Source of the DNA: a virus
Virus record (IMG/VR): IMGVR_UViG_3300025120_000622
Location: 1-22,273 of that record
Reading direction: 5' to 3' (one strand)
DNA length: 22,273 nucleotides
Shown here: positions 2,041 through 13,437 of the stretch, in pieces
Layout of the letters: each line of letters starts with the position of its first letter
Position numbering within the stretch: position 1 is the stretch's first letter
Position numbers and translations under genes: made by a program
Notes under the pieces: generated by a model
Told to the model about the DNA's origin: nothing
The model's input: the letters and a program-made list of their open reading frames with translations, nothing else
Database searches by the model: none

Positions 2041-2071
2041 CAAACTTAGTTAATAATCTCCAACTGACCAA
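2041..2071 (-). promoter_or_regulatory. Promoter P2 for the small-gene cascade
   Basis: In the 70-nt gap after the nuclease gene, the minus strand reads TTG (2071-2069), 20 bases, then TAAGTTTG (2048-2041). This is a full match to the Bacteroidota consensus. The spacer begins GTCAGTTGGA, nearly the same as in P1, so the two may share an extra recognition element. It would drive the genes from 2018 down to 307. Confidence 0.65.
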
Positions 2072-4124: not shown

Positions 4125-4464
4125 CCTTAATCTCTTCTGATTCTATATCTATTATTTTATCCTTGTCTCCAAAATTAATAATAGGGATGTTGACTTCTGT
4201 TTTCACGTTAAGTTCTTTTAATTCTTTTGGTTTACCATACTTGTATTCCCAAAGTAATCTCATGTGTGGAAAGCTATCTTTAGATTGTTTAGCTAATTCA
4301 AGCCAAGCTTTCTCTTCACTACCAAACACTTTTTTCATAGCTCCCAAAGCATAGTTACCTAGCTTTTTTTCTCTTGCTTTTGGTGGTCGTCCTTGACCTC
4401 TTGATATACCTTTAAGAGCTCCGTTGTTCGACCTTCCGTCTTTCTTTTTTTCTTTTTCTTCCAT
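4096..4464 (-). CDS. Terminase small subunit-like DNA-binding protein, 122 aa
   Basis: A 122-residue protein with a glycine/arginine-rich segment GRSNNGALKGISRGQGRPPK (residues 10-29) containing a GRP AT-hook-like core, then a helical part ending in LWEYKYGKPKE (71-81) and a disordered acidic tail. This N-G-G-x-G-RP(P/K)KA head followed by a (F/L)xEYxxGKPKE element is a pattern I know from short proteins encoded next to terL in many phages, usually annotated as terminase small subunit-like. In that role it would recognise the packaging site. It overlaps the 106-aa gene by 29 nt and the GIY-YIG-like gene by 1 nt (TAATG). Confidence 0.65.
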   Translation of the reverse strand: MEEKEKKKDGRSNNGALKGISRGQGRPPKAREKKLGNYALGAMKKVFGSEEKAWLELAKQSKDSFPHMRLLWEYKYGKPKELKELNVKTEVNIPIINFGDKDKIIDIESEEIKDDQKKEESS

Positions 4465-5099
4465 TATCTATAAATGTGTGCTATTAATGTCGCATATTTA
4501 TATTGCTTTTCAGTTAACTTTTTATTTGTTTGATATTTTTTACAAACACTTTTTATAAAATTATAATGTGTTTTTTTCATACCATTAGTGTTTAACAAAT
4601 TTATAAGATATTTATTTTGTTTTAATGAAATCGTATAATAAACATTACCTTTTATATAATTTTTACTTCTGTATTTTTTAATTTTTACTTCACTTGATGT
4701 AAAAAAACTTTTTACTGTTTTATTTTTTTTAGAGTTGTTTAGAGCTTCAATTTTATCATCAAAATCATATTTGTTTAAATCACTTTTTACAGACAAAATT
4801 TCTTTTTCACTTAAATCAAACCACTCTGTTTTGTTTGGTAAAGATATTTTAGCGCGTTTATATTTTCCAAAAATATATTTTGTTACATTATTATCTTTAA
4901 ATCTTTTTTTTATATCATTTTCAAAAGACATGGCTTTCTCTAAATATTTTTTATATATTATTCTTAAAGGAAAACTTATTCCAGTTTGCAACGTCTTTCT
5001 TCTTTGTTCAACATCTTTAGATACACCAATTTTGTAATAATTAAATTCCATAGAATCTTTAAAGGTCATTATATATAAATATTTATTATCACAACTCAT
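4464..5099 (-). CDS. T5orf172/MUG113 GIY-YIG superfamily protein, 211 aa
   Basis: Residues 1-105 match the T5orf172 (MUG113) branch of the GIY-YIG nuclease superfamily: YLYIM (7-11) and YYKIG (21-25) form the two GIY-YIG-like strands, followed by SKDVEQRRKTLQTG with Arg33/Arg34, a candidate catalytic Glu60 (SFEND) and the family's closing EWFDLS (92-97). Residues 106-211 are lysine-rich and unassigned, possibly a DNA-binding tail. By hand count bases 4501-5100 are about 20% GC, against about 34% for five sampled lines of terL, which suggests recent acquisition. Proteins of this family occur as mobile or accessory nucleases in phages. It lies between the DUF1599 gene and the terminase small subunit. 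Confidence 0.75.
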   Translation of the reverse strand: MSCDNKYLYIMTFKDSMEFNYYKIGVSKDVEQRRKTLQTGISFPLRIIYKKYLEKAMSFENDIKKRFKDNNVTKYIFGKYKRAKISLPNKTEWFDLSEKEILSVKSDLNKYDFDDKIEALNNSKKNKTVKSFFTSSEVKIKKYRSKNYIKGNVYYTISLKQNKYLINLLNTNGMKKTHYNFIKSVCKKYQTNKKLTEKQYKYATLIAHIYR

Positions 5100-6033: not shown

Positions 6034-6849
6034 TTATAATGTTGCTTTTACTATATAGTTTTCAAGATCATATTCATTTTTAATATAGTTTTCATATACT
6101 TTTATTGCATATTCAACCTTTTGTTCTCCACTATAATAAAACTCTTCGCTCACATCAAATATGCCTATTTCATTTGTAGGAGATTTGTCAATGACAATAT
6201 ACTTAAAATCTTTATAACTTTTGGAAAATAAATTACAATAAATATAACACTGGCTATCATAATTAAATTTATTAGCACTTCCTTTGAAACTATTATATTC
6301 TATAAGTTCTCCATTTTTATTATAAAATGACTTATTTATTTGTGCAGTGCTTTTTAAATCTATTAAGTGTTCTCCTAAAATATCTGCTTTGCCTCTAAAT
6401 GGATAATCCATTAAATTGTTTACCATAGGCACTTCAAACTTACTGTTCTCTATAAGTTCTTTTGCCTCATCACAATTATAAAATCTATCTCTCATTCTTA
6501 AAGCCACATCTCTATCTTTAACAGTAAACACATCCCACCTTTCTTGTTTAGCTAGTTTATATTCTTTATTTGCTTTTGTCTTTACATCTAAAAACAAACA
6601 CTCATTAAACTTATGCTCTTCTAATATACTTGCATGAAATAAATAACCTTGTGCCAATGCATCAGATTCAGTAGGTAGGTTTATTTGATTTAAGTATTCA
6701 AGTGGTGATTTAAGTAGTTGACTTATTGCACTACTTGATAAACAAGCTTTAGCTAAATAGCCATAATAGAAACTGTCTTCTATTGCTTTTTGTGTGAGCT
6801 CATGTCTGTCATGCATCTCATTGTCTAGTGTGATAATTGGTTCTTTCAT
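6034..6849 (-). CDS. RecE/YqaJ-like PD-(D/E)xK exonuclease, 271 aa
   Basis: A 271-residue nuclease with the full RecB/RecE-type motif series: GYLFHA (His72), Glu139 (KFEVPM), GKAD (153-156, Asp156), IDLKST (Asp164-x-Lys166) and the QxxxY motif at Gln200-Tyr204 (DSQCYIY). These residues bind the metal and position the 5' end in lambda-type and RecE-type exonucleases. It would resect double-strand ends to give the 3' single strand used by the ERF annealing protein at 10907-11470, together forming a Red-like recombination pair, although the two genes are about 4 kb apart. It follows the lipoprotein gene after one nucleotide (TAA T ATG). Confidence 0.85.
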   Translation of the reverse strand: MKEPIITLDNEMHDRHELTQKAIEDSFYYGYLAKACLSSSAISQLLKSPLEYLNQINLPTESDALAQGYLFHASILEEHKFNECLFLDVKTKANKEYKLAKQERWDVFTVKDRDVALRMRDRFYNCDEAKELIENSKFEVPMVNNLMDYPFRGKADILGEHLIDLKSTAQINKSFYNKNGELIEYNSFKGSANKFNYDSQCYIYCNLFSKSYKDFKYIVIDKSPTNEIGIFDVSEEFYYSGEQKVEYAIKVYENYIKNEYDLENYIVKATL

Positions 6850-6850
6850 A

Positions 6851-7093
6851 TTAATTACAATTTGAGTTATACTGATATGATAAACTGTATTCCCAACATC
6901 CGTCTGCTATGTAATAATTAAAAACCTCATTGTTGTAACCATCCCTGCATAGATAAACATATCTAACAGTGTTGTCTCCGTAGTCAACATGGTAAGGTTC
7001 GTTGTAAGGTGCTGAAGGATAGCTACTTAGATCGCAGTTGTCCTCACAACTTAGTAATGTGCATAAAAGTAATGTGTAAAATAATGTTCTCAT
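6851..7093 (-). CDS. Phage-encoded small lipoprotein, 80 aa
   Basis: An 80-residue protein with a lipoprotein signal peptide: hydrophobic MRTLFYTLLLCTLLSC with the lipobox L-L-S-Cys16. The mature part begins Cys-Glu-Asp-Asn; acidic residues just after the lipidated Cys are a weak hint of surface export in Flavobacteriia. The mature domain has Cys20, Cys49, Cys66 and Cys79, possibly two disulfides, and is tyrosine-rich (about one residue in seven). It has its own promoter P3 (7112-7141), separate from the replication operon. Small phage lipoproteins such as T5 Llp block superinfection at receptors, and that role is my inference. It is not in the lysis block, so an Rz1-type spanin is less likely. 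Confidence 0.75.
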   Translation of the reverse strand: MRTLFYTLLLCTLLSCEDNCDLSSYPSAPYNEPYHVDYGDNTVRYVYLCRDGYNNEVFNYYIADGCWEYSLSYQYNSNCN

Positions 7094-7111
7094 ATTTCTT
7101 TGTTTTCAACA

Positions 7112-7141
7112 CAAAGTTAATAAAAGAACTTATATATGCAA
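7112..7141 (-). promoter_or_regulatory. Promoter P3 for the lipoprotein gene
   Basis: On the minus strand TTG (7141-7139), 19 bases, then TAACTTTG (7119-7112) match the Bacteroidota consensus. The element fills the 51-nt gap between the 48-aa gene and the lipoprotein. The expected start near 7106 gives a leader of about 13 nt. It would also transcribe the downstream exonuclease-to-terminase genes. Confidence 0.65.
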
Positions 7142-7144
7142 CTA

Positions 7145-7291
7145 TTACATGAAATTCTTTTTCCAAACATCTAAACCAACTGCATACCTTTGTTTAGTAT
7201 CTGGGTACTCTAAGATCATTTTTGCATTGTTCATGAACCTTGCTAAGAAGTTTGCCTTCTCTTCATATTTCTTTGGTTTTAAAAATGGCAT
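7145..7291 (-). CDS. Small phage protein with RFM...PDxKQRxAV motif, 48 aa
   Basis: A 48-residue protein whose core, FLARFMNNAKM (15-25) then EYPDTKQRYAVGLDVW (28-43), matches a short helical pattern I recognise from phage proteins (F-x-x-R-x-M-x-x-x-x-M ... P-D-x-K-Q-R-x-A-V-x-x-x-x-W). The pattern often appears at the N-terminus of prohead protease or capsid-region proteins, and here stands alone. The start ATG is 4 nt after the stop of the 133-aa gene. The function of the motif is not known to me. Confidence 0.65.
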   Translation of the reverse strand: MPFLKPKKYEEKANFLARFMNNAKMILEYPDTKQRYAVGLDVWKKNFM

Positions 7292-7295
7292 AGTA

Positions 7296-7697
7296 TTATT
7301 TTTTATATTCTTTATAAACGTTCTTTAACTTGTCGTGTACTGTTTTCTTGTAGCATGATGAACAACTTGTTAAACTTGCCTTTTGATGAAATACTCTATT
7401 GTATATTTTAAGAACATCCGTTTGAACTTCTGGTTGTACAACGTTTTTATTATCAGTATAATATTTATCTAAGTAAGTGAATTCATCCTCAGTTAAACAC
7501 TGTGGTTTATAATAAGGATATAAATCATTTAAGATTTGTTTTCTCTTATCACATCCACAATCCTCACCAAGTACCCACTTAGCTATTTTTGCTATGCCAG
7601 TTGCTTCTAACACTTGTTCGACTGTATCGCCTAACCCCTTAGCTTTTATACTTTTTGTACTCTTCTTTGGTTTCTTTTCTAATTTTTTCTTTTGCAT
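7296..7697 (-). CDS. Conserved phage protein with GEDCGC and CxxC cysteines, 133 aa
   Basis: A 133-residue protein with a lysine-rich head (1-20), a GLGDTVEQVLEATGIAKIAK helix pair (21-40), GEDCGCDKRKQ (44-54), CLTEDEF (67-73) and a C-terminal CSSCYKKTV (112-120). Cys47, Cys49, Cys67, Cys112 and Cys115 could bind zinc. I recognise the GLGDT...GEDCGC...CLTE layout from hypothetical proteins of Bacteroidota phages, but no function is known to me. The first ATG gives a 59-nt overlap with the sigma-like gene; no alternative ATG lies before the conserved part. Confidence 0.65.
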   Translation of the reverse strand: MQKKKLEKKPKKSTKSIKAKGLGDTVEQVLEATGIAKIAKWVLGEDCGCDKRKQILNDLYPYYKPQCLTEDEFTYLDKYYTDNKNVVQPEVQTDVLKIYNRVFHQKASLTSCSSCYKKTVHDKLKNVYKEYKK

Positions 7698-8205
7698 TTG
7701 TTAATGTATTAAATATTGAACTTAAACTTATTTTAGTTTCTTTACTTATATCTCGCATACTCATATTAGTATTAAGATATAACTTAGTTAGCTTCTTGTC
7801 GTACCAATACCAATCCTCTATAATGTCATCGATCTTGTTATACAAAGCTTCTAAATTTACTTTTTTATTATAATTAGTATTCATTTCATCTGCATTAAAA
7901 GTTATACTATTCATTATATAATTATATTTCTCTTCATCTACATCTGAAAACACTGTAATCTTTTTCTTTTTATAACTACTGCATTTACTGTAATATAAAT
8001 TTCTTAATGTGATATAAATATAAAATGTATTAATTTCTTTTTCATTGTACATTATACGATTTACATCTTTAGTGTAATCATACATTCTGAGATACATCTC
8101 TTGAACTAACTCATTTGCATCATTATTGTTTAGTTTAAAGCTTTTTGCCATCTTAATCCAGTCAAGATGTCTCTTGGATAATATTTCAAGTATATTAGAG
8201 CTCAT
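7639..8205 (-). CDS. Phage sigma-70-like (ECF-type) factor, 188 aa
   Basis: A sigma-like protein: residues about 13-75 resemble region 2 (DWIKMAKSF, ANELVQEMYLRMYDY, then TFYIYITLRNLYYSK) and residues about 145-175 resemble the region 4 helix-turn-helix (MSMRDISKETKISLSSIFNTL) followed by a basic helix. Similar proteins in Bacteroidota phages are annotated as sigma factors or sigma-like regulators. It may direct host RNA polymerase to other phage genes. I chose the ATG at 8205, which overlaps the VRR-NUC stop by 11 nt; another ATG at 8235 would add ten residues and a 41-nt overlap. The linker (80-130) is atypical, so promoter recognition is uncertain. Confidence 0.6.
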   Translation of the reverse strand: MSSNILEILSKRHLDWIKMAKSFKLNNNDANELVQEMYLRMYDYTKDVNRIMYNEKEINTFYIYITLRNLYYSKCSSYKKKKITVFSDVDEEKYNYIMNSITFNADEMNTNYNKKVNLEALYNKIDDIIEDWYWYDKKLTKLYLNTNMSMRDISKETKISLSSIFNTLTNAKEKIRKETKEEYKKYKS

Positions 8206-8485
8206 CTTTAAATACAATGTCTCTAAGTTGTTCAAATGAATTTATAACATAATAGTTTCCTTTCCATTCAGATTGGAATCTAACTTCGTCTGGTGTTAAC
8301 TTTTGTTGTGCTTTTGGCTTAGAACCGTCTTTAATTTCTATTAAGTAGTTATTGAAGTTATAACCTACAATAATATCTGGAGCACCTTTTCCTAATTGGT
8401 GAGTATGGAGGACAGAGCATCCTATCCCCCTTAGTTGGGCAACTATTTTTTTCTGGTTAGCATCTACTCTAGCTCTGATTCGCAT
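8195..8485 (-). CDS. VRR-NUC domain nuclease, 96 aa
   Basis: A 96-residue single-domain VRR-NUC (PD-(D/E)xK) protein. GAPDII carries Asp37, YLIEIKDG gives Glu50-x-Lys52, and LTPDEVRFQSEW (63-74) supplies the conserved Gln71 helix. The length is typical of stand-alone phage members, some of which cut Holliday-junction-like or other structured DNA. It overlaps the primase-helicase 3' end by 22 nt and lies within the replication block, consistent with processing of replication or recombination intermediates. Confidence 0.85.
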   Translation of the reverse strand: MRIRARVDANQKKIVAQLRGIGCSVLHTHQLGKGAPDIIVGYNFNNYLIEIKDGSKPKAQQKLTPDEVRFQSEWKGNYYVINSFEQLRDIVFKDEL

Positions 8486-10906: not shown

Positions 10907-11470
10907 TTAGGTTAATAATAATTTTTCTACTTTCTTACTTACTTTATATTTTTTTCTAATATCGGCTATAGTAAAACCTTTTTTTGTTATGGCATCTTTT
11001 GCCTTATTAAACTTGTCTCCTTTTTCATCTAACCAATCTTTAGATGGCTCTAATACAGTCGTAGAGACGTTTTTAGCTACCTTAGAGTGATTATTAGTAG
11101 CATCTGCATCTTTGTTATCGTCAATTAAAAATAAACCGTTTAAAGCGTACTTTCTAGCATAACTGCTTGATGCTCCATAGCATTGAGCTACATCCATTCC
11201 CTTTCTATTTAAGTTAATACCTGCTTGTGCTCTGACAGTAATCTTGTCTTTACCATCAGTAATTTCAGCAACTGCATTAACAAATAAAGGTTCTGGGGCA
11301 ATAGAATCAGAGATAGTCAATAACAACCCTTCTTTCATAAGTAAAGGTTTAACTGCTTCTAAAATGTCTTCACAACTTCTATAATTGTAATTACCGAAAT
11401 TGTTTCTTTGATTTTTTGGTGCTTTCAAACTCCCTTGAACTTTCACCAACTTCTTTGTTAAGTTTTCCAT
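10907..11470 (-). CDS. erf: ERF-family single-strand annealing protein, 187 aa
   Basis: A 187-residue ERF-family recombinase. KVQGSLKAPKNQ, FGNYNYRSCEDILEAVKPLL (about 25-44) and the later MDVAQCYGASSSYARKYAL (about 93-111), ending in LIDDNKDAD, are the diagnostic ERF blocks. It anneals single strands during recombination and genome concatemer formation, probably after resection by the exonuclease at 6034-6849. I start it at the ATG 11470-11468 (MENLTKKL). The upstream frame to 11533 adds 21 hydrophobic residues not found in ERF proteins, and it lies upstream of the predicted transcription start. Promoter P4 leaves almost no leader. Confidence 0.85.
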   Translation of the reverse strand: MENLTKKLVKVQGSLKAPKNQRNNFGNYNYRSCEDILEAVKPLLMKEGLLLTISDSIAPEPLFVNAVAEITDGKDKITVRAQAGINLNRKGMDVAQCYGASSSYARKYALNGLFLIDDNKDADATNNHSKVAKNVSTTVLEPSKDWLDEKGDKFNKAKDAITKKGFTIADIRKKYKVSKKVEKLLLT

Positions 11471-11474
11471 GCAA

Positions 11475-11505
11475 CAAACATATTGATAATAAATGTCATG
11501 TGCAA
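11475..11505 (-). promoter_or_regulatory. Promoter P4 for the ERF/replication operon
   Basis: On the minus strand TTG (11505-11503), exactly 20 bases, then TATGTTTG (11482-11475) match the Bacteroidota consensus. Only four bases separate the -7 element from the ATG of the ERF gene, so the transcript would begin at or next to the start codon. Confidence 0.6.
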
Positions 11506-12245: not shown

Positions 12246-12708
12246 GACTTATATCTTTATATTTAGTTTTACCATTTTCTTTATATGCTAACAAGCATCT
12301 TTTTCTATTACTGTCACTATCTACATAACTAACATGCACCCAATCAGGTTCAGTATCTGTACCAAATTCCCAAATAAGTTGATCAAAATCGAGATTATCT
12401 TTAATATAGTAATACATATAAGAATTAGAAACATAACCATAAACATCGTCAATATCAATAGCTCTGCCTTGACAATGTTGACTTTTATTGCTACCACCAA
12501 TCGCTTTATTAAGTTCTTCACATCTAAAAAATGAATTAATTTTAATTGGACCATTAACTGCTCTTCTAAGTGGTTCAAACACCTTCTCAGCAATTAACTC
12601 CATATTTTGTAGCTCATACTCATTAGGTAAGTTTTCTATGCCTAAGCGAAGAGCTGTGACACTTCTAGTAGCTTCTTTGTAAGTAATGTGTTTGCTTATT
12701 GAATTCAT
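12238..12708 (-). CDS. M15-family peptidoglycan peptidase (endolysin), 156 aa
   Basis: A 156-residue peptidase of the M15 (VanY/L,D-endopeptidase) family. INSFFRCEELNKAIGG (57-72) precedes SQHCQGRAIDID (77-87), giving the zinc ligands His78 and Asp85; Glu114 (IWEFG) is the likely catalytic acid and His125 (WVHVSY) the third ligand. It would cleave peptide cross-links of the wall at lysis. There is no signal peptide, so export depends on the holin encoded just downstream. It overlaps the Trx-like gene by 4 nt and the holin by 8 nt, forming a tight lysis cassette. Confidence 0.9.
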   Translation of the reverse strand: MNSISKHITYKEATRSVTALRLGIENLPNEYELQNMELIAEKVFEPLRRAVNGPIKINSFFRCEELNKAIGGSNKSQHCQGRAIDIDDVYGYVSNSYMYYYIKDNLDFDQLIWEFGTDTEPDWVHVSYVDSDSNRKRCLLAYKENGKTKYKDISHV

Positions 12709-13025
12709 AGCTTGCTAACCCTATCTACATTGTTTTGTATTTCAAGATTGCCTACTTTAATTTTTAATGATATATCTGCAATATACTGCATCCTTACTCT
12801 ACCTGATTTATCCATAATAACAATAACAGGAACAGCAACTATACTTTTTTGTATATCTTTAGGTTGATCTTTTAAATAGCTAAACTTAACTACAGCTCCT
12901 GTAATATCAGACAAGTCATAGTTATTTCTTTCATTCCACTTTGCATTAATTTGCAAAACAGTTACATCTTGACTATATACAGATGCCGCAACCAATACAC
13001 ATATCGCACATAATATTTTTTTCAT
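12705..13025 (-). CDS. Secreted thioredoxin-fold-like protein in the lysis block, 106 aa
   Basis: A 106-residue protein with a signal peptide (MKKILCAICVLVAASVYSQ, cleavage likely after residue 18-19) and a mature part resembling a small thioredoxin fold: VTVLQINAKWN, a helix, then SIVAVPVIVIMDKSGRV (61-77), where the VP stands where thioredoxins have their cis-proline. The redox CxxC is missing, since the only cysteines are in the signal peptide, so it cannot be a disulfide enzyme. I recognise the pattern from Bacteroidota phages next to endolysins. The role is unknown; a periplasmic lysis partner is possible. It overlaps its neighbours by 4 nt on both sides. Confidence 0.6.
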   Translation of the reverse strand: MKKILCAICVLVAASVYSQDVTVLQINAKWNERNNYDLSDITGAVVKFSYLKDQPKDIQKSIVAVPVIVIMDKSGRVRMQYIADISLKIKVGNLEIQNNVDRVSKL

Positions 13026-13300
13026 TTACTGATTATTTCAAACAACTTGTCGTCTATTTTCTTCAAGGCATTTGAGTTTTCTTCTACTTTAGTACCAGTA
13101 TTCATTATAGTTTCTCTGATTAACTGATCTTTTAAATCATACTCAGTTCTACTAATTTCTGGTTCTGGCAATAATTTAGCTTCCTCAATATCCGCTTGTA
13201 AAGCAAACCACATACCTATAAGAGCAGACAAGCCAACTCCTATAGCTATAAGTGTTTTAATACTAATTTCAAATTTACTATCCTCACTCAATTCATTCAT
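13022..13300 (-). CDS. One-TM membrane protein in the lysis block, 92 aa
   Basis: A 92-residue protein with an N-terminal membrane segment (LIAIGVGLSALIGMWFALQ, about 17-35) followed by a polar, probably periplasmic, helical domain (LLPEPEISRTEYDLKDQL, then a heptad-like end). The topology fits an inner-membrane spanin or holin accessory; the conserved-looking LPEPEI...RTEYDLKD segment is familiar from Bacteroidota phages. I start it at ATG 13300-13298, which overlaps the upstream stop in an ATGA junction; the longer frame to 13339 would run against the 46-aa gene. Confidence 0.65.
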   Translation of the reverse strand: MNELSEDSKFEISIKTLIAIGVGLSALIGMWFALQADIEEAKLLPEPEISRTEYDLKDQLIRETIMNTGTKVEENSNALKKIDDKLFEIISK

Positions 13301-13437
13301 AATTTCTTTGTCTTTTGAATAGTATAAGTTATCGTGCAAATAAGAAGTATAATTTTAAGCCACACTTCTACTTCAGTTAATGATATAAAAAAAGCTACTG
13401 AATTCAGAAAGTATATCTTCAAATCTGCAAAACCCAT
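13297..13437 (-). CDS. Small one-TM protein in the lysis block, 46 aa
   Basis: Forty-six residues with one membrane segment (WLKIILLICTITYTI, about 26-40) preceded by an amphipathic stretch (DLKIYFLNSVAFFISLTEVE) and followed by a basic end (QKTKKL), an N-out or holin-like topology. It occupies what would otherwise be a 100-nt gap, starts 4 nt after the stop of the 84-aa gene and is joined to the next gene by ATGA (13300-13297). Likely a small holin or antiholin partner, by topology and position only. Confidence 0.6.
   Translation of the reverse strand: MGFADLKIYFLNSVAFFISLTEVEVWLKIILLICTITYTIQKTKKL

Follow-up and report, generated by a model that had tools for sequence, protein, structure and literature searches.

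The DNA analysed here, an IMG/VR virus record 22,273 bases long, is referred to below as the window, and nearly all of its genes lie on the minus strand. At positions 6851..7093 (-), stop codon included, it carries a gene for a predicted 80 aa lipoprotein, delineated from the list of open reading frames, its conservation in relatives and an AlphaFold2 model. The gene is preceded by g48 (7145..7291 (-)), a 48 aa gene product without a TM segment that, by synteny in relatives, always precedes this slot, and is directly followed by an exonuclease VIII-like gene (PDDEXK, DUF3799) at 6034..6849 (-). The original prediction had placed the lipoprotein gene between replication genes, which is roughly right: the exonuclease VIII-like gene lies downstream, and the immediate upstream neighbours are a pair of small genes (7145-7697) with no known function. 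The lipoprotein stop and the exonuclease start are separated by 1 nt and no terminator was found between the two genes, hence the P3 promoter described below must also serve the downstream genes, and the exonuclease VIII-like gene is expected to be co-transcribed from it.

Further upstream lies a sigma-factor-like gene (7639-8235) with a TTG start and weak matches to sigma-70 regions 2 and 4, which is followed by a gene for a 133 aa cysteine-containing protein (7296-7697). The pair is conserved across many distant Bacteroidota-type phages, and in Nonlabens phage P12024L the gene at the matching place carries a sigma-70 region 2 annotation. A GIY-YIG-like gene at 4464-5099, with a GC content of 0.20, has counterparts of 47 or 100% identity in a subset of the close relatives and is missing from the rest, making it the true variable insert of the operon.

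Promoter P3 and its leader

P3 (7112..7141 (-)) has the sequence TTGCATATATAAGTTCTTTTATTAACTTTG and comprises a TTG at 7139-7141 and, after a spacer of 19 nt, the box TAACTTTG at 7112-7119. This is the arrangement of Bacteroidota sigma-A promoters, namely a TTG at about -33 and TAnnTTTG at about -7, placed 19-21 nt apart. Since the stop codon of the preceding 48 aa gene occupies 7145-7147, P3 falls within the intergenic gap. A single promoter match is weak evidence, because full matches with spacers of 19-21 nt are only mildly enriched in this 30% GC sequence (six in the window against 2.5 +/- 1.6 expected), and TANNTTTG alone is not enriched at all (42 observed, 39 expected). The support for P3 comes from its relatives. 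TTG-N19-TAACTTTG is present in all 48 sequences of the first relative set, and a comparison of 20 distinct 38-mers from relatives shows no change at any of the 11 consensus bases, against variation in 12 of the 19 spacer columns and seven of the eight columns upstream. Conserved boxes around a largely drifting spacer argue that P3 is real beyond chance, which bears out the claim that the lipoprotein gene has a full promoter match of its own. A divergent genus (L136-L149) retains the -7 box but has no TTG.

The -7 box of Bacteroidota occupies positions -12 to -5 (PMC9723704). Reckoned from this box, the P3 transcript would start at about 7107, close to the 7106 given in the original prediction, and would begin with a predicted A-rich leader of about 14 nt (7094..7107 (-)). 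An inverted repeat, CTTTGTGTTGAAAACAAAG (CTTTGT-N7-ACAAAG; 7098..7116 (-)), spans the end of the -7 box and the P3 start site. Most relatives retain its arms, around loops of differing length, and it is the sole repeat of this kind in the window. With its left arm placed before the predicted start, the repeat was rejected as a 5' hairpin and is possibly an operator, or a chance overlap of the promoter with the A-rich leader.

Two further promoter matches in the window, at 107-137 and 2041-2071 (-), share GTCAGTTGGA(A/G)AT as an extended upstream element, a sign of possible co-regulation. Another full match (11470-11505) lies only about 4 nt before the likely start of the Erf gene (MENLTKK), whose early transcript is possibly leaderless.

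The lipoprotein, its relatives and its predicted fold

The precursor begins with MRTLFYTLLLCTLLS, followed by CEDNC, and thus presents a basic N-terminus, a hydrophobic stretch and an LLSC lipobox. Residues 1-15 form the signal peptide, C16 is the lipidated cysteine and residues 16-80 make up the mature domain, which contains four further cysteines, C20, C49, C66 and C79. The lipobox cysteine and exactly four other mature cysteines, five in total, are kept in 46/46 distinct sequences, in full agreement with the original description of a lipobox-bearing 80 aa protein with four mature cysteines. The prediction from this pattern and its conservation that the product is a bacterial lipoprotein and a substrate of SPase II is well supported. 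The median dN/dS is 0.10 in the mature part, indicative of purifying selection, against 0.54 in the short signal peptide, and by this measure the gene is translated and under selection. It encodes the only lipobox protein of the window and lies away from the lysis-type genes at 11.8-13.3 kb. Its base composition (GC 0.34, GC3 0.32, against about 0.30 and 0.23) is close to that of its neighbours and not distinctive, and a foreign origin on this ground was rejected.

Residues +2 to +6 of the mature protein read SDNCD in 25 and EDNCD in 12 of the 46 distinct proteins. The lipoprotein export signal (LES) of Bacteroidota is SDDFE in F. johnsoniae and SDDDD in B. fragilis (PMC5080379), and the rule derived for it, a polar residue at +2 and acidic residues from +3/+4 to +6, is matched in part. 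Surface exposure of the lipoprotein is thus possible.

In IMG/VR, 47 contigs encode the lipoprotein at 70-100% identity, and more distant ones do so at about 48-56%. Because related metagenome assemblies yield partly redundant contigs, distinct sequences were counted where this matters. The gene lies between g48 and the exonuclease in 195/195 loci, as far as contig ends permit, and accompanies all 62 distinct exonuclease haplotypes that were >60% identical and on contigs holding >400 nt of upstream sequence. The variable presence in relatives proposed as a check on the original prediction was accordingly not seen, with no loss in any haplotype. Nor does the locus behave as a strict moron, a self-contained and variably present unit with its own promoter and terminator: the promoter is there, but there is no terminator, the gap to the exonuclease is 1 nt, the composition is neighbour-like and the gene is syntenic throughout.

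By terminase and helicase the closest isolated phages are Nonlabens phage P12024L (52%) and Tenacibaculum phage JQ (51%), which makes a Bacteroidota host likely. A scan of GTDB genomes with TerL, aimed at a prophage or host, gave a best match of 52% in a Psychroflexus MAG, too distant to name the host, and no relatives of the lipoprotein were found in the same genomes. Sequence searches of Pfam, NCBIfam, PHROGs and the PDB with the lipoprotein family, tblastn against GenBank phages and megablast of the whole window likewise returned no match. Judged from these searches, the lipoprotein is a new conserved family of uncultivated Bacteroidota phages, situated in a slot that combines a promoter with an envelope protein.

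AlphaFold2, run on 41 aligned mature sequences, yielded a confident model of a compact β-fold (pLDDT 90.6, pTM 0.74) with four antiparallel-looking strands (residues 20-24, 27-32, 39-48 and 51-60) and short helices at either end. No significant fold match was found in the PDB or BFVD with Foldseek or VIA. The top PDB match, Knl1 (E 0.14), and the XusB lipoprotein found by VIA (Z 4.5) were not taken as meaningful, the best VIA scores of 5.0 and 4.5 being at chance level. At rank 33 in BFVD stands a 61 aa lipoprotein of Escherichia phage ZL19 (Rtpvirus), a match that is not significant (E 0.45; TM 0.54/0.57) and concerns a protein not established as a homologue of the exclusion lipoprotein Rtp45. 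Structure predictions for exclusion lipoproteins of this sort have been reported as unreliable (PMC12685063), and the ZL19 match therefore serves as a lead and not as a test.

Occupants of the slot in sister phages

In phages with terminases 66-79% identical to that of the window, g48 is followed by a transmembrane protein of 56-60 aa, and in still more distant phages the slot holds one of 41-42 aa, in both cases mostly behind the same type of promoter. These proteins are unrelated to the lipoprotein. The TM families of 41-60 aa, represented by L130:6430-6612, L274:2713-2886, L325:2452-2577 and their relatives, usually have their own promoter, and the two that were searched (L130 and L167) had no database match. 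In some relatives (for instance L036 and L045, 6248-6718 in each) a 156 aa methyltransferase-like gene with weak adenine-methyltransferase matches lies between the lipoprotein gene and the exonuclease.

Across 88 distinct slots the occupant is the lipoprotein in 50 (37 with a full promoter), a TM protein in 23 (19 with a full promoter) and a soluble protein in 15 (none with a full promoter); of 180 other gaps of 40-200 nt in these loci, 11 contain a full promoter. When small ORFs of 40-110 aa in distant loci were counted, a full promoter within 80 nt upstream was found for 27/72 envelope-type ORFs and for 14/759 others, an odds ratio of 32 that is inflated by relatedness, though several unrelated families contribute. 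Judged from gene order, the slot behaves like a cassette at the genus level. It may further be conjectured, at rather less than even confidence, that Bacteroidota phages keep a dedicated slot composed of the 48 aa gene, a sigma-A promoter and a small envelope protein, the occupant of which is exchanged between genera (an outer membrane lipoprotein or unrelated TM proteins), and that every occupant acts early in exclusion or envelope takeover. On this view the lipoprotein would represent a new kind of exclusion lipoprotein in Bacteroidota phages, possibly acting from the cell surface.

A putative early exclusion lipoprotein

The best reading of the protein, held at about even odds, is that of an early outer membrane lipoprotein that would block a receptor and so exclude superinfecting phages. 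In such a scheme the host RNA polymerase with sigma-A would transcribe the gene from P3 at once after injection, and P3 would also feed the exonuclease-to-terminase part of the operon. The product would be exported, processed by SPase II and lipidated as in known families, its four mature cysteines would form two disulfides, and it would reach the outer membrane, perhaps its outer face given the resemblance to the export signal. As the least certain step, it would bind an outer membrane receptor and so keep the same phage or related ones from adsorbing any more, sparing progeny from being wasted on infected cells and debris. This reading is backed by the conserved lipobox and five cysteines, the dN/dS values, the compact β-fold, the invariant P3 boxes and the envelope-type occupants of the slot, as well as by the existence of exclusion lipoproteins of the same size and layout (T5 Llp, T1 Cor and Rtp45). 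It is weakened by the lack of homology to these three proteins and of a significant fold match, by the partial nature of the export-signal resemblance and by the distance from any receptor-binding gene, unlike llp and cor.

A core function would be equally consistent with the strict conservation and the low dN/dS, which weakens the exclusion reading further. Presence in 62/62 haplotypes under strong purifying selection would suit a constant, conserved host target, and the unrelated small membrane proteins in the slots of sister genera suggest that the shared theme is the envelope and not one receptor. The lipoprotein might thus be a host-takeover or envelope-modifying protein that binds an outer membrane machine, for example that of BAM, SusCD, T9SS or LPS export, and alters uptake, gliding or cell integrity. 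We regard this as unlikely, though by no means negligible, as phage lipoproteins of this size and layout, from the literature and general knowledge, mostly serve exclusion or lysis (PMC9586334; PMC12685063). Lysis itself, with the protein as the outer membrane subunit of a spanin pair, is highly improbable and was rejected. The product is a small predicted outer membrane lipoprotein and a TM-plus-periplasmic protein at 13022-13339 resembles an inner spanin by eye, but the lipoprotein gene follows a conserved promoter in the early operon, some 5 kb away from the lysis-type genes, its neighbours (the TM-less 48 aa protein and the exonuclease) provide no adjacent or embedded inner-spanin partner, its modelled domain is compact and not extended, and the sole PHROG spanin match (E = 0.29) came from the N-terminal 30 residues of one relative. 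At 12705-13339, beside an M15-like peptidase, a secreted 106 aa protein adjoins a 105 aa protein with one TM segment and a charged periplasmic part, a possible unusual spanin or lysis cassette.

A different doubt concerns the promoter and not the protein, and is compatible with both the exclusion and the envelope-takeover readings. P3 may be there chiefly to serve the exonuclease and what follows it, as a plain internal promoter of the early operon for its exonuclease-to-terminase half, with the lipoprotein gene merely the first to follow it. The 1 nt gap, the missing terminator and the full promoters that some relatives carry ahead of small soluble ORFs near the exonuclease all fit this idea; against it, the promoter remains with the lipoprotein gene where the methyltransferase-like gene is inserted, and none of the 15 soluble slot occupants has a full promoter. 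On balance it falls somewhat short of an even chance.

For the exclusion reading, receptor blocking of the T5 Llp type is the best functional analogy. T5 Llp acts on FhuA (PMC9586334) and Rtp45 on LptDE (PMC12685063), and the mature part of each contains a disulfide (PMC9586334; PMC12685063). Like the lipoprotein as predicted, Llp is a small precursor (77 aa) with a lipobox, a small disulfide-bearing mature domain and an outer membrane target, and its own promoter is annotated just upstream in the T5 record. Unlike the lipoprotein gene, llp adjoins the receptor-binding gene oad; Llp has one disulfide where the lipoprotein probably has two, and it is periplasmic (PMC9586334) whereas the lipoprotein is possibly surface exposed. 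The Cor superinfection exclusion lipoproteins are found in T1, phi80 and N15 (phrog_1119, NF047972), and T1 Cor, at 75 aa, is likewise encoded beside an exonuclease VIII-Erf module, albeit in the opposite orientation to the exonuclease. Rtp45 of Rtpvirus, which binds LptDE, resembles the lipoprotein, with its predicted disulfides, in its size (76 aa), its disulfide and its location near an exonuclease VIII gene. Membership of these families by sequence fails. The lipoprotein matched neither the Cor/Llp profiles (phrog_1119, NF047972), of which phrog_1119 recovered T5 Llp and T1 Cor as positive controls, nor that of the Rtp45 family (phrog_4281), and hhalign aligned only the signal peptides with T5 Llp and T1 Cor and only the lipobox region with Rtp45. 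The lipoprotein may nevertheless work like Llp, Cor and Rtp45. A more remote parallel, drawn from its description, is Ltp of Streptococcus phage TP-J34, described as a phage lipoprotein that excludes other phages (PMC3952083); it differs in belonging to a temperate phage of a Gram-positive host.

Exclusion lipoproteins of proven mechanism come from coliphages (T5, Rtp). If the exclusion reading is true, this conserved, cysteine-rich and confidently folded family would give a lead to the receptor and would extend the strategy to marine Bacteroidota phages, whose hosts have outer membranes rich in surface lipoproteins and TonB-dependent transporters. The promoter-bearing slot also offers an easy way of spotting small proteins that act on the envelope in Bacteroidota phages not yet characterised.
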